A stretch of 56,023 nt of DNA, taken from contig MU621192.1 of assembly GCA_025399215.1 (NCBI GenBank), positions 1 to 56,023 on the forward strand, given 5' to 3'. A model generated the notes under the pieces. That model did not search any database, had not been told where the DNA came from, and was given only the letters and a program-made list of their open reading frames with translations. The DNA is from Globomyces pollinis-pini. Its lineage: Eukaryota > Chytridiomycota > Chytridiomycetes > Rhizophydiales > Globomycetaceae. A program made the position numbers and the translations under genes. How positions within the stretch are numbered: the stretch's first letter is position 1; every line of letters starts with the position of its first letter. Positions 5,573 through 27,657 of the stretch are shown here, piece by piece.

Positions 5573-7166
5573 ATGCCTAATCTACTCAAAACAATCTTAT
5601 TTGGCCATCAATTTGTTCTATCGGCGCGTATCCTGAATTCACAATGGTTAAATACTGGTTACTGTGATTCTCCACCAAATGCTATGTACGTGTTTGACAT
5701 TGCAAACATTAAAGCGAAAACACCACAAAAAGGAGAAACTTGGTCATCACTATATCAGCAGTTTGCAAGTGAAAATCCTATCGGTACATGTGGTGCTCAA
5801 TATGAAAAATCTACCAGTGGATGTTGTGTAAATCTACTGACAAATACAAATGGTTGGAAAAGTGGATCACCGACTCTACTGAATTCAAATGATACTAGTT
5901 ATGAAAAATCACTCTATGAATATGCTATTAAACAAACTTACTGTAATGTGAAGCCAAACAATGGGATTCTTTTCAATGGATTCGTAGATGTGTTCATTTT
6001 AGCTGACGAATCATGTATAGACGGATATTACCAATGTTCATTGAACGGCTACTTTAACGTATTTGAGAATGAAGGTTGTAAAGGACAAGTTAGTCCTTAT
6101 CAATTAACTACTCAACCACTCGACCTCACACATCTTCAACTCGGTACCTTTACGGCAAGTTTAAAAACATTTTCTGCTGCAGATGGTAACATCAAAGTTG
6201 ATTGGTAATAAATCAGAATGATTCACCGTTAGGGTGGTATACTACCCATTGAAAAATCAAATCCCATTTCAACCACCCAATGATAAATTTATTGCATGGG
6301 ATATATGGCTTATCGTGCAACTATCGCTCACCGTCATCTTCTTTGGTTTAGGGGTGGTTTTCGGAATTATAAAATACCGACAGAAACCATCCACCTATTT
6401 CAAAATCTTGATAGTGAGTCAATCACTCTGGTTAGCATTATCAATTGAAAACCTTATTGCCATAAATTACGTGTTTTCTTCGAAAGACGCAGCCATTTTG
6501 GAAGCTATCGCGTACAGCTACCTATATGGGATATCGACACTATCAAGTGTGTTTCTTACTACTTGGTTATTCAACAGTACTGGTAAATCATTCATGCCGA
6601 AATGGATGATATATCCCATTACTATTTCACTATTGATTTGTCACGCTGTATTCAATGGAGCGGTTTATTTTGATTTTTGCAGGCTATCATATGTGGGTCA
6701 GGCGTTGTCATTTTGTAGTTCAAGTTTCTACATCAATTGGCGATCTTTATACTATTATTGGATTCCTATCGTATTCATTTGGGATGTGGTTCCAGTGATG
6801 ATGTTGATATGGTACACCATATATCTCCATTTCCACAAAATCACCAATCCTTGGAAACGATTATTGAAAATATGGGAATTGGATAAATTATTAATTGGTA
6901 TGGTTGTATTACAGATTTGGATCGCAATCTTTTATTTCGTATATTCGGATTATTTGAAATTTAATCAGTTTATGGATGGTGATAAACAAGCTAATTCACT
7001 TTCGAGAGGTAGACCACTGATTAGAGCTATTCACTTCAACTTGAATATTATTCTATTGCAACGATTTCATAAATTTTTTAAACATGCAGTGAAATGTGAT
7101 CAAAATGATTCTTGGGTTTTGAAAAGTCAAACTGCAAAGATAGATCAAACTAATCATATAAGTTAA
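5573..7166 (+). CDS. Secreted-ectodomain multi-TM protein, copy A (unknown family)
   Basis: Two exons joined over a 28-nt intron at about 6205-6232 (...VDW into VVYYPLKNQ). The N-terminus MPNLLKTILFGHQFVLSARIL is a likely signal peptide. A ~190-residue Cys-rich ectodomain follows, with spaced Cys (YCDSPP, GTCGAQ, SGCCVN, TYCNV, ESCIDGYYQCS, EGCKGQ). Then come six or seven hydrophobic segments, from IWLIVQLSLTVIFFGLGVVF to LLIGMVVLQIWIAIFYFVY, and a short hydrophilic tail after LSRGRPLIRAIH. The topology would place the ectodomain outside, as in a receptor or sensor, but I recognise no family. The neighbour at 7509-9138 is a clear paralogue with the same intron position. Confidence 0.8.
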
Positions 7167-18283: not shown

Positions 18284-20182
18284 CTAATGGACATTTCTTG
18301 AAACATCATAAGATTCGTCTTTAATACGCGCTATTATAACACCTTTTGATGTAAAACATTTGAATTTTGATTGAACTGGTGCTTCTACGAATTGAAGTAG
18401 TGCATGTTGAGGTGTTTCTTGATAAATATTACACATGCGACGAAATATTCCGATATCTCCCTTTATGGTTTTACAATCTAACATACCAACAAAATCTCCC
18501 TATAGATTAAAATAACATTATTTACTAAATGAACTTCAGCTCTGCCATCCGTAAATTTGATATCGGTCAATTGTCCTTGTTTTCCAGTCAAATCATGTTC
18601 AATTGATGCATTATTGCAAACAATAATGTATGCATTATAATGCTCAATATTGGTATTGATTTTGGCGTAATCTGATTTGATCTGTATCACCCCAGATAAA
18701 TTAAACCCAGTGTCTTGCGATTCTCCAAAGTGTTCCAGTGATTGATTGGATATACTAGGATAATGGCATTCAGTGACACATTTTCCTTTCATTTTAATTT
18801 GAGCAGAGCATGATTGGATGGCTATCTTCATGCTTGATACGAATTGATTCAAATTTAATATTAATGAATCGGTCACAACGTTCATAAAATCCAAAAAGAG
18901 GTTCTATAATTAATCAATAAGTGAATAGTACATTTCCATGAAATACTGTATTCAAAACTACGATATCTAACAGATGTAATCGAGAATCCTAAAGTAAGAT
19001 AAAAATTGGCAAACATTGATAGTCAAAGCAGCCGAGTTTGAACAAATTCGTAAAATTTCTGAATTTACATCCTAATGAAGATTAAATTACTTTATAACCA
19101 TACAATTCCTTTTAGTACCAGCGACTTGGATGAGATTTTTATACACTTTCCATTTAGATGCTATTCATTAAAAATAGATCATATACCTCTAGATTCACGG
19201 AACCGCTTTTTTTTATTATTTCTATTACGTCGAAATGCAAGTTCTATTGAATGAAATAAGTAGACTTAATTACCTCCAAATTTATGTTCCCAATTTTTGC
19301 CCAAAGTTTACATTCAAGAATCTGAGCGTCCTAGTAATTTTTCAGAATTTTGAAATTATTACCACGATAGATACTGGTGCAGTAACAAAACTCCCATCAA
19401 ACGATTGGATTGTTGATTTCTAAAACGATGAGACAAAAAATAGTACATCGATAGATAGCGAGCAATCTGTACTTATTTTAAGATTTTTGCATTTGATATT
19501 CTAAGATTAGCAACACAAGCTAACATTTATAGCAATTGAACCAGATTTAGCAGAATTGTCTATGTAAATCTTATCGGCCTGTATATCCTTGATAGTCATG
19601 GATGAACGATCAGATTTAACGAAAATCTGTTCCACTTCTAGACCTTGCATATAAATATTTTGTATTGATTCCCATTTCAGTGCATGTAAGCGAATGTTGC
19701 CTTGATTGAATATGATAAAGCTATTTCCATTTATGTCTAATGTGAGTTTGTGTGAAGGTGGTATATAGAGGTTAATTTCAACAATCACTGGTGCATATTG
19801 AAATTCAGGAATAGAAGGTTCAAAAAATGTCATATCTGATCCAGTAGGATCATTCAACCACATGTTGAATACCTTTCCTTCTAATATTCGATAGCCCAAC
19901 TTTTTCAATGGTTGGTGTACATTGTTGTGTGAAAGTATTTTCAAAACACCTCTGAATGAGTCTTCAGAATCATGGAGTCTGAAAATAGTCTAATCATTTC
20001 ATTAATTGGATAACAATTACATATAAATTGGTTGAATGGTAACGAATGGTTTCAATAGGTTCAATAAAGGGTAAGTCGAATAATTTCCCTTCCTTCATTG
20101 GATTGGTTTTTGCCATATTCTGAAAAGCTTGTTTGACCAGCAGCAGCTTATCCCTGGAAAGCGAAGACCGAACATCCGACAT
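18284..20182 (-). CDS. Beta-solenoid repeat protein, paralogue R1 (one exon per coil)
   Basis: Start ATG at 20182 (MSDVRSSLSRDKLLLVKQ), no signal peptide. An N-terminal ~200-residue domain carries VIVEINLYIPPSHKLTLDI. Then a run of ~57-nt phase-0 exons, separated by 24-35 nt introns (about 19530 down to 18895), each encodes one 18-19 residue unit: DAQILECKLWAKIGNINLE, NLHFDVIEIIKKSGSVNLE, HLNGKCIKISSKSLVLKGI (19104-19160), DVNSEILRICSNSAALTIN. The pattern x-L-x5-I-x-x-x-S-G-x-I-x-L is that of DUF4097-like beta-helix proteins. A longer exon (FMNVVTDSLILNLNQF onward) and a C-terminal block with DCKTIKGDI and ETPQHALLQF finish it. Function unknown; DUF4097 likeness is by pattern only. Confidence 0.8.
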
Positions 20183-20492
20183 ATTAAAAGTGTGAACTTC
20201 AAATTGTTTGGTAATTGTTTCAAATACTTTTACTTGTTACAAAACTGCCGTGTTGATGTACATCCCTAATGCCTATTGGTTGGACATATGGGCAATAGAA
20301 ATTGAATATAGACGTATTCTAAGTAGACAGTCCAAAAAACCTGGACGCTAGAGTATAACCCAACGAAAAACAAGTACATACTCTTTGGGCATTTTGGGTT
20401 AAAATAGAATTCAATAGTAGATATATGAGTAAATTAGAAAAACAGTCTTTGTTACCAGATAAAACGCAAGGTACACTTCATAGTAAGGAAGA
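20183..20492. other. Spacer between R1 and GNAT gene
   Basis: Presumed R1 promoter region plus the 3' end of the GNAT gene. No coding signal, RNA gene or repeat was seen. Confidence 0.4.
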
Positions 20493-21365
20493 TTATTTAT
20501 TAGATGGATCACTTTCGAGCGATGGGGTAGGCTTCCTAGTCCATTCCGAGCATTGAAAGGCGGGCAAAAATCCCAATGATTCCCAAGTTTTGGCTGCAAC
20601 ATCATCCCATGCAACGGTTCCTGCATACAAATATCCAAGTTCTTTGCATTTATTGATTGCACAAGAAAGCATAGCACGATTCAAGCCTTTGCGACGATGA
20701 CCTTCAAGAACGCCAGAGCCTTGAATGACTGGGATATTATAGTGTAGTCTCAGTGTTAGGTATCCCACAACTTGACCTTCTGATGAATAGCAAAGGTAAT
20801 TTAGATCTCCTTTTTTGATCATGTCTTTCAGTGCGTATCGGAGGCGATCCAAATAATTTCCATTCATTGGGTATCCAAATATATCCGATTCCACTTTAAT
20901 TCGTTGTTCAAAAGACTTTTCATCATCAGACATTAATCGAATTTCATAACCTTCAAAAACCTTCTGATTGGAGTTGAGTACTGTAGAAATATCAAGCACT
21001 CGGATAACTTGAGTATGATGGAAAGGGTTTTTTATAAATCCAAGTTCAAGTAATAAATCCTCCTTGACATCAAAAGCCATTCCAACTGTGACATGAATCT
21101 CCAGGCTGGTATTGCTGGAAATGAGTTTTTTGAAATCAATAGCAATATCTCCGTCTCCAATATACTCAAAAACATCCAATCTTTTACCACTATATGACAA
21201 ACAAGTGTGAAAGGGTGGACTAATATTATAGCACTCTGGCTTTGTCAAGGTCATTGAAATTGTCTCGTCCCAAAACGTAGCTTTTTCTATTCCGGCTATT
21301 ATTCCATTCTGTTGCATAAAAAGAAAGTAAAGAAAATTGAATTGGTGCTTGTCTTTGAGAAGCAT
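20493..21365 (-). CDS. GNAT-family N-acetyltransferase
   Basis: About 290 residues, essentially one exon. The C-terminal half is a GNAT fold: GQVVGYLTLRLHY (strand), VIQGSGVLEGHRRKGLNRAM (motif A, with the acetyl-CoA pyrophosphate loop in HRRKGLN), LSCAINKCKELGYLYAG, and AAKTWESLGFLPAF (motif B). The N-terminal half (DFKKLISSNTSLEIHVTVGM, DVKEDLLLELGF) looks like a degenerate second GNAT-like domain, a common two-domain arrangement. The ATG at 21365 was used. A short hydrophobic start (FNFLYFLFM) may instead be a mis-joined exon. It sits between two beta-solenoid paralogues on the same strand; I cannot tell whether they are functionally linked. Substrate unknown. Confidence 0.8.
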   Translation of the reverse strand: MLLKDKHQFNFLYFLFMQQNGIIAGIEKATFWDETISMTLTKPECYNISPPFHTCLSYSGKRLDVFEYIGDGDIAIDFKKLISSNTSLEIHVTVGMAFDVKEDLLLELGFIKNPFHHTQVIRVLDISTVLNSNQKVFEGYEIRLMSDDEKSFEQRIKVESDIFGYPMNGNYLDRLRYALKDMIKKGDLNYLCYSSEGQVVGYLTLRLHYNIPVIQGSGVLEGHRRKGLNRAMLSCAINKCKELGYLYAGTVAWDDVAAKTWESLGFLPAFQCSEWTRKPTPSLESDPSNK

Positions 21366-21616
21366 TGATAACAACAGTTAAGATTTTAGAGTTGATATTT
21401 TAAATATGTACCGAATATTGTGTGTTGGAATCTGGGGTTCGCGTTAGTGCACTGGTGAATAAACTACCCACTGAAGTTTAGCCAAAAATATTCAAGCTCA
21501 TATGAATCACAGGTCCTTACTGCTTTAAAATTTTGAACTAAGTTGACAAATATACCATGAAGAATGAAAATACGAGGTATAAATTAAATATATAAAGTCC
21601 CATTCAGACCAACTAA

Positions 21617-23460
21617 TCAAGTAGAAATTTCCGAACCAATATTGAGATTTACATGGGTATCTCCTTTTACAGCAAGGCATTTTAAATTGGACTCATTGAT
21701 ATGGTCCCCGATCTGTATCAAATGCCTCTCCTTTGTTTCTTCGTGTACAATGGCATTATCTCTTCTAATCATGATATTTCCCATTTGAGTTTTACAATCT
21801 ACTAAACCAATGAAATTTATCTGAGAATTAACCAATCGCTTCTTACTGTATTCACCAATATATCCCCGTCAGTTGTCTCGAGCTTTGTCAATTGGTATGG
21901 CTTTCCGTTGAACCGATGTATGATGGACGCATTGCTACTCTGAACGTCATATAGTCTATATTCGGATATTTCAGATTCGATTTTTCCAGAAATTGTGCGA
22001 ATCAAAACAACTCTATCATTTTGATCCAGTGAGGTAGCTTTAGGTTCCAGTTCAGTAGAATCCGATATAAATTTACCCGATATCTTGATGTTTGACGAAT
22101 TGGACTGGATAGATAGCATTGTAGTCGATACAAAATCAATCAATTGAATGGATCCAGAATCGGTAAGCATCTTCATACAATGTGACTTGATCCCCTAGCT
22201 ATTAATGTACCTTCGATACCTCCAGTAAAATATCACCGTAAACTAGGTTCAAATCCAAGACTGTAAAAGAACAATTCTACATGGTCAATTGACACATAAA
22301 TTACTTTCATATTTACAGTTCCCGAATTCGCCATAACTATGAGACTCTCCAACTTCATGTCCTTGTGGTTAAGGGTATACTACGTAACACTTACAGTTGC
22401 AGAGAAATTGGATGTTCTCATATTAAGCTTGGCAGATTTGCCTTGGCAATCCTGGTTGTTAAATGGTATTTGCTTACCTGAATGTTAATTGGTGTTGGTT
22501 TACTGATAGAGTAACTGATCCTGATCTATTCAAAAGCTTCATTTGGTGAAATTTCATATCCTGTAGGTTTAGATACATGCCATATATTACATTCATTGTA
22601 ACTATGCCCGACTTGGTGCACAGATATGAATTCCTTAATGTTGAGTCCTAGATTCAATACAAATTTCCAATTACTGTAAAGTTAAAGTCCGCCGATGGTG
22701 ATTTAATATAGATCGATTCGAAATAGCTGCTCTACAAGATTATTTAGAGACAAATATATACATCAATATCAATCAAAGTAGGAGAGTCTAGAAGGGCATA
22801 CTCTGAATGAATATCCTACCTACTAAACCAAAACTGTTCCATTACCTTCAAAATTAGACACCCTAGATCCGCTTTTAAAGACATTTTCTTTGCTCTGATA
22901 TTCTGTAATCTGATATCGTGTGTCTTTACTGTAATCTTTAATTCATTCAAATTTAGGTCCTGTAATGACGATAAATGAGTAGTTGACAGCGAATGCAGCA
23001 ATTTACAGCCATGGTTAAATAAGACTACTCCATCTTTGTTAATTTCCAAATATAATCTAAATTCTTTTGGAATATAAATCAATAACTCCAACATCACATC
23101 ACAGTATTGATAATCAGATACGTAAGGGTTTACCATGGATAATGTAGGTGGAGTTGGATCATTGTAATTGATAGTTAATACATTGCCTTCTGCTTCATAC
23201 TGAAGTTTATCAGAGGAATTGTAATCCTCTTGGATAGAATAAACATTCGCAGTGACACTAAATGCTCCTGAATCATATAGTCTCATACAAGTACAACGAT
23301 TTTTAGAATCGAATCTAATTGTATCCACTTCCAGAGGTATTTTCAAATCCCAAGTATCCTTCAATACCATTGGTTTTTTTAAATCAGACTTTCTGAATGA
23401 TTTTAGGAATTCTGTGAATATCTTTCTATCTACATCGAATCGTTTGTTGTGAGTTGACAT
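21617..23460 (-). CDS. Beta-solenoid repeat protein, paralogue R2 (one exon per coil)
   Basis: Start ATG 23460 (MSTHNKRFDVDRKIFTEFLK). First exon ~210 residues with DVMLELLIYIPKEFRLYLEI, the family's shared YIP-x2-F-x-L signature, and GVVLFNHGCKLLHSL. Then coil exons: SSYFESIYIKSPSADFNFT, DSTLRNSYLCTKSGIVTMN, DMKFHQMKLLNRSGSVTLS and NCSFTVLDLNLVYGDILLE, with introns of ~21-40 nt. The longer exon (MLTDSGSIQLIDFVSTTMLS) and C-terminal block INFIGLVDCKTQMGN, ending NIGSEIST-stop, match R1 and R3. No signal peptide or TM. Some coil exons are less regular than in R3 (one is longer, one shorter), so this copy may be drifting. Head-to-head with R3. Confidence 0.78.
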
Positions 23461-23738
23461 TGGTTAAGAATTTGAAACCAAAACAGACCCAAAATGGACT
23501 ATCACCTACGATACTACACCTAAAGACAATACTACAATCTACTAGTAATAGATATTATCGTTAAGTCCCAAATGACTTTTTTGGTATTCAATGGGTCCAA
23601 TTGTGACTGATTTTTCTCTTAAACAATTTGAATTGAATTCAAAGACTCCAGTAAAAAACGGTCACTTTACCAAACCTTTGGATAAATAGGAATCAGGAAT
23701 TCAATTACAATTTAAAGGGAATCAGATACTTACCATTT

Positions 23739-25626
23739 ATGTATCACGATGAACTGGATTCTTTATCATACAATATGTTTAATAACTTGACCAAAACGAT
23801 TCAATTAAAACCACTTGTTCTTCATCATTCTTATGAAATCATTCCTCCACAAAACGTTAACACTCTTCATTTTGCAACACCTAATCCTTGGGTTAATATT
23901 CATTATTCTAACTATTTTTAGATGGTAGTCAAGTTATATCAATCAGAGACTAATACTTTCAAATTATTCATTAACGTCAAAACAACAAAATCTAATTATA
24001 ATTCCAAAAATAGACTAAAATATCCTATTGTGGATGATACAATGCACATTCAATACAATGATAATTCTGTAGATCAAATTTTGTTTGTATCTCCTGATTG
24101 TGCAGAACATATATACGGATCTATTATTGTTGAAGTTTGTGTTTATATACCAATTTCTTTTAAATTGTCATTGGAGATACTATCAAGCAAAACCTTACTA
24201 TTTAATCAAGGTTGCCCACTCTTGTGTTCACTGAAATGGAATACCGAAGCAGATATATGTCTACGTGATTTCGTTATTGGTACTATACAGTTATTAGCTA
24301 CAGGGTCAGATATCAATCTATACAAAGTAGAGGCAGAGAGTATAGAAATCAATTGTCTAAAAGGACATACAAATCTTCATGTAATTTATAGTATCAAGTA
24401 ACCATAAAAGGAAGTATCAACCAAATCAATTGACATTAAAATCGATTCATCTTTATCTATTGAAGTTATTTTTGATGTTTCTAAATCGTTTAGGGTTGTA
24501 GTTTAGAATCATTGTCTGTAAAAGCTTCCACAGCACCGATACTGATAAAGGTATCAAGATCTTTCTGATTATTTAGAACTCTACCATAGAAAGATGTTTT
24601 TTAGATATCAGAATTAGTTCTGTAACATTAGAGGTATTTCAATTTTTATTTTTAAGTTTAACAGAGTGTTGGATATAATACTATATCTATTCTTGCAAAA
24701 AGCGGATCTATTAGATTAAAGGTAACTACGTATTACAATCAAATGTATAGAGTGTAAAAGGGAAATGTATAAAATTGGTGTCCAAATCAATTGTATTCCA
24801 TGGAAAAGTAATGATGAAATTGTCTAACCATCAGGAAATTCAATCAGAACTCTTTCAAGTGTCTTCCAACTCTGCATCATTGTCTATTGATGTATTCTAT
24901 TATAAATTTTAATTGTACTTAGGATTCTACATTCCATTACTTGGATATCAAAGTTTTGAATACTTTACTAAACACAAATGTAATTTTGACAAATCATTAT
25001 TTATATTAGAATCTTTTTTTAGATTTTATGAATATTGTTACGGATTCATTAATATTAAATTTGAATCAATTTGAATCAACCATGAAGATAGCGATCCAAT
25101 CAAACTCTGCTCAAATTAAAATGAAAGGAAAATGTGTTTCTAAATCTCAATATACCAATATATCAAGTAAATCATTGGAAGATTTAAAGGAATTTCAGTC
25201 TCAAGATCCAACATTTGATTTATCTAGAGTTATACAGATCAAATCAGATGACGCCAATATTGATAGCAATATTGAACATTATAATGTATACAACGTTATT
25301 TGCAATAATACCACACTAAAACATCAAATGACTGGAAAACAAGGACAATTGACTGATATCAAATTTACCAATGGAAAAGTACAAGTTCTTTTAGTAACCT
25401 TACTACCAAATTTAATGTATAGAATGAATTTTTTGGAATAGTGGATTGTAAAACTATGCAAGGAGATATTGAAATCGTAAATAATAGAGATATTATTTTT
25501 CAAGATACTCCACAACATCAATTCTTTCAACTTGGACATGGCATTATACAAACTAAATTGAAATGCTTTTCTACTAATGGACAGATTAAAATAACAAATG
25601 GAGATACCAATCCAACACTAATATGA
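23739..25626 (+). CDS. Beta-solenoid repeat protein, paralogue R3 (clearest one-exon-per-coil case)
   Basis: Start ATG 23739 (MYHDELDSLSYNMFNN); a ~30-nt intron joins NPW to MVVKLYQSETNTFKLF. N-domain has IVEVCVYIPISFKLSLEI. Coil exons at 24411-24464, 24494-24550, 24577-24633, 24665-24721, 24751-24807, 24835-24891 and 24923-24979 are 54 or 57 nt, all phase 0. They encode EVSTKSIDIKIDSSLSIE, GCSLESLSVKASTAPILIK, NSTIERCFLDIRISSVTLE, SVGYNTISILAKSGSIRLK, SVKGKCIKLVSKSIVFHGK, EIQSELFQVSSNSASLSID and DSTFHYLDIKVLNTLLNTN. Introns between them are 26-31 nt. Next exon starts 25010 (NLFLDFMNIVTDS). The C-block FGIVDCKTMQGDIEI and DTPQHQFFQLG ends at 25626. Only plus-strand member; best matched to R1 coil by coil. 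Confidence 0.85.
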
Positions 25627-25688
25627 AATATAATAATACAGCACTTTAAATTATTACATCATTAAATTATTTTATAAATTATTATTAG

Positions 25689-27657
25689 TTAACTCATCAG
25701 TACTACGATATCACCTGTTGCACTGAAAGCCCCCAAAGTACTACCACTAGATACATCTCCAATACGAAATATATCCTGATGAGGTGTTGGACCATATGCA
25801 TAGTTTCTAAACACATCACCATGTGATTTTTTGGTTCCAGAAGTAGTTTTAATATCAAGAATGGCTTCCAATTTTGTCTATTGTTACAACAATTACGTTT
25901 ACCACATTAATTAATATATTACCATCGGTTGTTTTGATTCTTGTTTGTTGGTTTGAAGTACATTCATAGCTGTGGTCAATATTTCCACTACAGGTAAGTA
26001 TGTCTAGAACTTTGTATTGGTGAATATTTGTTTTTATAGAACCAGTTGAAGTTTGAAGTTGTATATTTCCAAACGATGAATTCAACTCTGGATTGGTATT
26101 GAATCTGACTTTATCGAGACATTTACCAATAAGAGATATTGGGGAAGAATTGGTTTGTATAAACAGACGGTTTGAAAATGTGAAATTTGATAATTCAACA
26201 TTGCCAAAATCTGATAAAATATTCATCCAATCTGAATGTACATCCTAGAGTTAACCAATGTATCATACATTGAGGGTAATATCCCCGTGAGGCAATGCGC
26301 ATTGTAAAATACCAAATTGGGAATTCTAAACGGTCAAAGTTGAAATATAAGTACATTAAATCCTATGGAACCAGAATGTTTGGAAATTTCTATACATTTT
26401 GATTCAACTTGCTAAATTATTAATATAATCTGATGACAAATACGTTTCCAATAATCCGTCCTGACTTTAACAATAATTTCATATTATTCCCGTTAACATT
26501 CTAACTTATAAATCTAAAAATTGTACCATTAAATCCAAGTTGGATGTTCTACCAGAAATCTTGAAATTTTCATAGTTGGTATTCTAGGATAAACAAAAGA
26601 ATCCTTACCGTTATACTAATCGGTCCAGTTTGTGACGAAATAACAGCTTGTTTTAAATCACAACCCTGATATCAATATATACTTCAAGTTCAATTACATC
26701 TAATTTAACTTCGGCAGCTTTAGAAAGTAAAAACAAATTGTCCACTTTGGAATTCTAATGATAAACAAAATGAAATTAATACCTCCAATTTAAAATCATA
26801 CACTACATCTACATTTACTTCACCAAAAACAGAATCCTAATTTTAAGAGGTTTTAAACACCTTACTGCAATTGAAAGTTTTTCCAATTTTGTTGAGTGAT
26901 TTTTCGCATTCATACATCTCAGTTTCGTAGCTTTGGTTTTTTTGATACCAATCATCCCAGTTTGAGAAGACACGTTAATTTCATTGGCTCGAAGTTCAAA
27001 GACACATGGTGCAACTTTACTGTGCCAATTTACAACATCAAGTTTGCAATCATCGTGATTAAAAATCATTGTGTATGGTGATATAACATTCAAATTGAGT
27101 TTGAAATCTTTTGGTATAAAGAGGGAAACATCCGCTAATACTGTACAGTATTGATAATCCTTATCGTAGGGATTCAAAATAATCATTGTACTGGGAGTTT
27201 TATCTGCAACTTCAATATGCATTAAATTATCAAAGAATCGAATCCGTAGCTTCCCCAGAGGATCATAATTTGAAATAGTGGATTTAATGTCCACTTTGAC
27301 TCTCAATTCGTTATCATCAGTGGAGAACAAACGAATAACACTCTAAGATGGTCAGTTTAACAACGATATTACATGAGGATTTGAGGATTCCCAATGAATG
27401 GTGTCTGTATTTGGTAGAGTCTTTTTATTGTAGGACTTGAAGACTTGAAGTTGATGGTCAATAGTTGCTAATTTGAATGCATCCAAAAGACTGTCTTTTT
27501 CAGTGTTGAATGTATCAGTAGTAGTATTTACTACAGTTTCTGAAGATAATTTGGTATCGTTATCTGCCAATTCGGTAGGTTCATAATTTTTCGGGACATT
27601 TACCGGATCAGACTTTAAGTTAGACCCCAAAGTTTGGTCAGAATAATCTTCCAGCAT
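25689..27657 (-). CDS. Beta-solenoid repeat protein, paralogue R4 (one exon per coil)
   Basis: Start ATG 27657 (MLEDYSDQTLGSNLKSD). An acidic/Ser-Thr leader of ~60 residues is longer than in the others, followed by the N-domain (LADVSLFIPKDFKLNLNVI, TMIFNHDDCKL). Coil exons: DSVFGEVNVDVVYDFKLE, NSKVDNLFLLSKAAEVKLD, GCDLKQAVISSQTGPISIT, NTNYENFKISGRTSNLDLM, NVNGNNMKLLLKSGRIIGN, QVESKCIEISKHSGSIGFN and NSQFGILQCALPHGDITLN, then DVHSDWMNILSDFGNVELS leading the long exon (CLDKVRFNTNPEL). C-block ILDIKTTSG and GPTPHQDIFRIGD, stop at 25689. Introns 25-35 nt, phase 0. Tail-to-tail with R3, only ~60 bp apart. Confidence 0.8.

Follow-up and report, generated by a model that had tools for sequence, protein, structure and literature searches.

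Exons of fixed length that each encode one repeat of a protein have been described in the ROCO genes of brown algae, in which each LRR occupies a 72-bp exon in phase 2, and the account in PMC11378527 presents these exons as shuffled, alternatively spliced and subject to diversifying selection. The 54-bp exons of fibrillar collagen are likewise uniform, and are described in PMC4450265 as thought to have multiplied and then to have become fixed in total length. The domain considered here, Toastrack, unifies DUF4097, DUF2154 and DUF2807 and, according to PMC11237479, passed from bacteria to some eukaryotes, an example being human FAM185A. The same source argued in 2024 that Toastrack is an intracellular, membrane-proximal platform, the adhesin-like view being older. 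In the papers that we consulted on Toastrack, on exon duplication in solenoids and on fixed-length repeat exons, we did not find an exon-per-repeat organization for a beta-solenoid.

The window that we analyzed is the whole of a 56,023-nt contig (MU621192.1) in the 18.5-Mb assembly of the chytrid fungus Globomyces pollinis-pini, and it contains four related genes, R1 to R4, each modelled with 11 exons. R3, on the plus strand at 23739-25626 (exons of 153, 459, 54, six of 57, 384 and 204 nt; 531 residues), has a block of coil exons at 24411-24979 in which an exon of 54 nt is followed by six of 57 nt that begin at 24494, 24577, 24665, 24751, 24835 and 24923. These six starts, their phase of 0 and the introns of 26-31 nt between them had been named in an earlier, sequence-only reading of this DNA, and all are correct in our model. 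R1 (18284-20182, minus strand; exons of 162, 465, 54, six of 57, 378 and 216 nt; 538 residues) and R4 (25689-27657, minus strand; exons of 285, 477, 54, six of 57, 342 and 189 nt; 562 residues) have the same order of one 54-nt and six 57-nt exons in blocks at 18932-19500 and 26269-26836, respectively, both on the minus strand. R2 (21617-23460, minus strand; exons of 531, 57, 54, six of 57, 348 and 204 nt; 511 residues) lacks intron 1 of its sister genes and has one additional intron at a coil border, such that its block (22220-22902, minus strand) runs 57, 54 and then six times 57 nt. Per gene, the blocks of R1-R4 consequently comprise a single exon of 54 nt plus six or seven of 57 nt, all in phase 0. 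The layout that had been claimed for R1, R2 and R4 on the model of R3 was borne out for the exons, and the introns that border the block exons are GT-AG and 24-33 nt long, the departure being a single R2 intron of 52 nt. Elsewhere in the window, two adjacent related genes on the plus strand (5573-7166 and 7400-about 9138) would, judging from their translations only, encode multi-pass membrane, receptor-like proteins.

The gene models were produced by a home-made gene finder that was seeded with eight R3 introns picked by eye and then retrained on the genome. The block exons of R3, R4 and of a further family member, R5, are direct gene-finder output that was left uncorrected afterwards. Some junctions in the automatic models of R1, R2 and two more members, R6 and R7, were wrong and were corrected by hand using frame, paralogs and GT-AG borders; as the paralogs guided this correction, these four models are biased toward the family pattern. 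The first exons are the uncertain part of the models, those of R6 and R7 being the worst.

Based on the translated models, seven to eight successive coils in the middle of the protein are predicted to be encoded mostly as one coil per phase-0 exon of 54 or 57 nt. In the register of these block coils, position 1 is usually D, N, G or S, positions 7, 9, 16 and 18 are hydrophobic and glycine is the commonest residue at position 14, and every block exon border falls between coil positions 19 and 1. A length of 19 residues was found for 34 of the 42 coils c1-c7 of R1-R6, the others having 18 (six coils) or 20 residues (two coils). All six of the 18-residue coils are at position c1, one in each gene, and this anchors the six genes in one register. 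When placed in one 19-residue register, the coils within a gene had a mean score of 6.2 versus -14.4 for shuffled coils. The exon-coil correspondence is supported in the central block, but calling it perfect, as had been done, is too strong for the flanking coils, several of which lie together in each of the long exons 2 (459-477 nt in R1, R3 and R4) and 10 (342-384 nt). The border between c8 and c9 is without an intron in R1-R7. Exon 10 of R2 (21847-22194, minus strand), an uninterrupted exon of several coils outside the block, was modelled as an all-beta solenoid, in agreement with the fold that had been proposed.

The coil series is identical in R1-R6, and that of R7 is the same by reading its sequence. 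This constancy in seven genes indicates that the number of coils has not changed since their common ancestor and that it was introns that came or went. Exon shuffling, in the sense of a repeat number or order that varies between genes, was not found in R1-R7, and the proposal that coils are gained or lost is not supported, as the 18-residue coil keeps its place and only the border introns vary. The arrangement looks frozen rather than actively reshuffled.

Searching the whole genome with R2, R5 and R6 as queries, with the best candidates only being scored, gave a family of at least seven genes. R5 and R6 lie in tandem on contig C64, and R7 is on the same contig about 48 kb away; all three have open frames. 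The identity between R7 and R6 is 69% across query residues 278-473 and 52% across residues 18-188. The block exons of R5 are 54, four of 57, 60 and 57 nt, with the last intron absent. Those of R6 and R7 are identical in length (57, 54, 57, 117, 114 and 57 nt), and the absence of two coil-border introns leaves two exact double-coil exons, of 117 and 114 nt, in each gene. The rule of one repeat per exon applies to the central block only. An additional locus, R8 (L049 193-977), is an N-terminal remnant of the family that apparently ends before the coil block, and its neighbor was judged by eye to resemble phospholipase C.

Some segments of these genes are more alike than the remainder. Exon 10 of R1 (18526-18903, minus strand) and exon 10 of R3 (25010-25393, plus strand) begin with 43 residues that have only four differences, and as the two proteins are only 42% identical overall, this suggests gene conversion between inverted copies. 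The C-terminal parts of R6 and R7 (L046 1744-2366 and L021 5041-5666) have a dS of 0.37, versus about 1.5 in the block or the N-terminal part, and being far closer than the rest they also suggest gene conversion.

Against the DUF4097 profile (PF13349), whose gathering score is 22.9 bits, the spliced proteins scored 39.8 (R1), 87.1 (R2), 56 (R3), 57 (R4), 67.9 (R5) and 55.6 bits (R6). On these scores R1-R6 are assigned to Toastrack, and the resemblance to DUF4097 that had been perceived by eye is confirmed. The profile matches begin at residue 72 in R3 and residue 52 in R5 and both extend into the N-terminal part, which in the known domain is seven-stranded, with intertwined strands. A second Pfam domain above its cut-off was not present in R1-R6, and R2 scored 44 bits against NCBIfam LiaG, a bacterial Toastrack-type protein, which is far below the cut-off of 285. 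Fusions to PspC or LiaI-LiaF-TM were absent from R1-R6; such fusions are frequent but not required in Toastrack proteins, so this does not count against membership.

A Kyte-Doolittle hydropathy scan detected no hydrophobic N-terminus in R1-R7, consistent with the earlier remark that no signal peptide is seen. The best 19-residue mean was 1.06-1.74 in R1-R7 versus 3.17 and 3.26 in two Toastrack paralogs, C275 and C293, and the lack of a stretch like the anchors of these paralogs would fit a soluble scaffold. The protein pattern had been taken as surface or adhesin-like, which is the older reading; given the intracellular location proposed in PMC11237479, the absence of a signal peptide needs no special explanation.

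Six further Toastrack genes of this genome have coils of 18-20 residues (split by hand) within uninterrupted frames of 225-292 residues. Between alignable anchors there are 274-302 residues in R1-R7 versus 81-121 in these six paralogs (the anchor of one, C337, being doubtful), and the R-family solenoid is therefore two- to nearly four-fold longer between anchors. The additional 153-221 residues correspond to 8 to 11 coils; subtracting a non-coil insert in exon 10, judged by eye, lowers this to roughly 7 to 10, and the intron-punctuated block itself has 7 to 8 coils. In five of the six paralogs a modelled intron lies before the open frame, which starts two residues ahead of R-family intron 1, suggesting that this is one old intron. 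Two of the genome's paralogs (L024 3666-4650 and L025 56-1039) are very similar to each other and have a strong N-terminal hydrophobic anchor before a short Toastrack solenoid.

The short gaps between the coil exons are interpreted here as spliced introns in a real and old arrangement, based on their common positions, on the behavior of R6 and R7, and on the gain in DUF4097 score on splicing. Intron columns were read from an alignment of the R1-R6 proteins (18-42% identity) that was built without intron data. Six columns (265, 283, 302, 341, 380 and 399) have an intron in all six genes, and three have one in five genes (322 and 360, R6 excepted, and 535, R5 excepted). Column 240 has an intron in R2 and R6 only, and column 99 in R1, R3, R4 and R5 only; as one of the three inner branches of the six-gene tree is supported and the tree thus mostly unresolved, these two subset-confined sites cannot be polarized. 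R6 alone has two phase-1 introns (columns 64 and 176), whereas every modelled intron of R1-R5 is in phase 0. Counting the coil-border introns only, six aligned columns are occupied in all six genes, two in five and one in two. Each of the 15 gene pairs has 6-10 intron sites in common, versus 0.04-0.07 under random placement. All seven introns in or around the block differ in sequence between R6 and R7, and five differ in length (31/25, 34/26, 27/32, 25/28 and 33/31 nt), while the block exons are constant. A home-made Nei-Gojobori count, in which dS was near saturation, gave this block a dN/dS of about 0.22; the ratio points to purifying selection on average in the sole pair close enough to measure. 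Finally, an unspliced six-frame search of the window listed one DUF4097 match, at 26 bits, versus 39.8-87.1 for the spliced R1-R4.

Introns of this size are usual in the sampled genome: in the gene-finder models, 28 nt is the commonest length of the GT-AG introns, and most of them fall between 24 and 34 nt. A piece of a lysyl-tRNA synthetase gene with introns of 27 and 28 nt gives a spliced product that can be aligned over its full length with solved structures. Similarly, a 33-nt intron predicted in the C224 gene is absent from the deposited G. pollinis-pini protein P0002, which is 100% identical over 88% of that gene model, although the automatic second intron conflicts with the deposited protein. 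Together, these two cases give independent support for tiny introns in the sampled genome. The regularity of the block is not a matter of chance, as among 80 other modelled genes only 3 of 426 internal exons are 57 nt, neighboring exons of equal length occur twice and three equal neighbors never; these genes have 3.8 introns per kb of coding sequence, versus one intron per 57 nt in the coil block. It could be argued that the gaps are eliminated DNA, translated spacers or the decay of pseudogenes, as the models rest on DNA and 3 of the 59 modelled introns of R1-R6 could be read through with neither a stop nor a frameshift. We consider this extremely improbable, because all 59 have GT-AG borders, because retention would add a stop in 36 and only shift the frame in another 20, and because of the fixed exon and variable intron lengths of R6 and R7 and the common size class of introns described above.

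The 52-nt intron of R2 (22452-22503, minus strand) reads as two head-to-tail, intron-like halves of 26 nt, each GT...AG, with 20 of 26 bases identical, and may have arisen when an intron was duplicated in tandem without any exon in the middle; by comparison, when 26-nt introns were paired, 3 of the 1275 pairs had 20 or more identical bases. Among the gene-finder introns, one of 17 long ones likewise splits into two GT...AG halves.

Structured tandem-repeat families are said, in the title of Paladin et al. 2020, to evolve through exon duplication. R1-R4 are intact-looking protein-coding genes for long Toastrack beta-solenoids that lack a membrane anchor. For the R family, we think it probable that the solenoid was lengthened in the family ancestor by tandem duplication of a coil exon with introns on both sides, and that the array was then frozen, the present proteins being putative intracellular scaffolds. 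The starting point would have been a Toastrack gene in the fungus with fewer coils and the old intron near its start, in which one coil gained phase-0 introns on both sides. Tandem duplication of the resulting exon-plus-intron unit of about 85 bp would have made the solenoid two- to nearly four-fold longer, after which the frozen array may have been copied to at least seven genes, with single introns lost exactly at coil borders. Each protein would be an elongated scaffold whose flat beta-sheet faces are available to partners. The attraction of duplicating an intron-flanked 57-nt exon is that one process explains both the length and the common register.

The block coils are, however, no closer to one another (mean 4.9) than to the uninterrupted coil c8 (7.3) or to coils of the other paralogs (7.5, with the borders of the latter set by eye), so there is no positive sequence trace of duplication, although such a trace may have decayed. 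Parallel insertion consequently stays a rival, in which a long, intron-poor solenoid took up introns singly at inter-coil turns that were tolerant of, or attractive to, insertion. The uninterrupted coils of the six other paralogs agree with such a beginning, and coils most often begin with D or N, which gives the borders a common turn. We nevertheless regard parallel gain as unlikely, since introns would have had to enter independently eight to nine times, at one coil after another and always in the same codon gap and phase, with none at c8/c9, and since the longer solenoid would still need a separate cause. In addition, a G as the last exon base upstream of the intron has a frequency of 0.31 among the 59 family introns versus 0.50 among 502 others, such that no common insertion-site motif is seen.

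Less probable again is the suggestion that the solenoid is actively modular, with coils skipped or exchanged to give isoforms and new binding faces. The block exons are phase-symmetric, so the skipping of a single exon would keep the frame, and the 72-bp LRR exons described in PMC11378527 offer an analogue with both shuffling and splice variants. Against this stand the constant number and order of coils at the low identities of R1-R6, and in R7, and the average purifying selection on the block in the one measurable pair. A further point against it is that in genomes with tiny introns the usual splicing variation is intron retention, not exon skipping. By analogy, in-frame skipping of coil exons in the living fungus would give a ladder of solenoid lengths for each gene, which we do not expect to be found; if it were true, it would be the beta-solenoid counterpart of the LRR-exon receptors proposed in brown algae, spliced across introns of just 28 nt or so.

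For this one domain, a single genome contains long members that are interrupted by introns as well as short ones that are not, and the old question of whether introns help repeat proteins to grow can therefore be tested directly in this fungus and related species. The family is also a warning for annotation, as its full-length proteins were missing among the matches in a protein database that does include a deposited G. pollinis-pini protein, searched with the R1-R4 alignment and R5 for proteins of 0.55-1.75 times the query length.

Compared with Toastrack in general, the R family is distinguished by a coil block cut into one-coil exons and, in R1-R6, by having a single Pfam domain above cut-off. 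The brown-algal ROCO genes, as presented in PMC11378527, are alike in having a tandem array of phase-symmetric exons of fixed length, each encoding one solenoid repeat; the R family differs in its 57-nt exons, its phase of 0, its tiny introns and its beta-solenoid rather than LRR fold, and also in its constant number of coils and in the average purifying selection of its one measured pair. Fibrillar collagen, on the description in PMC4450265, shares the uniform short exons but forms a triple helix and no solenoid, and its exon is not equal to one structural turn. In the R family the unit is a single 19-residue turn of a beta-solenoid, and the introns are very short. Genes with an exon for each repeat are already known for LRRs and collagen, to which the R family adds a quieter, beta-solenoid case.
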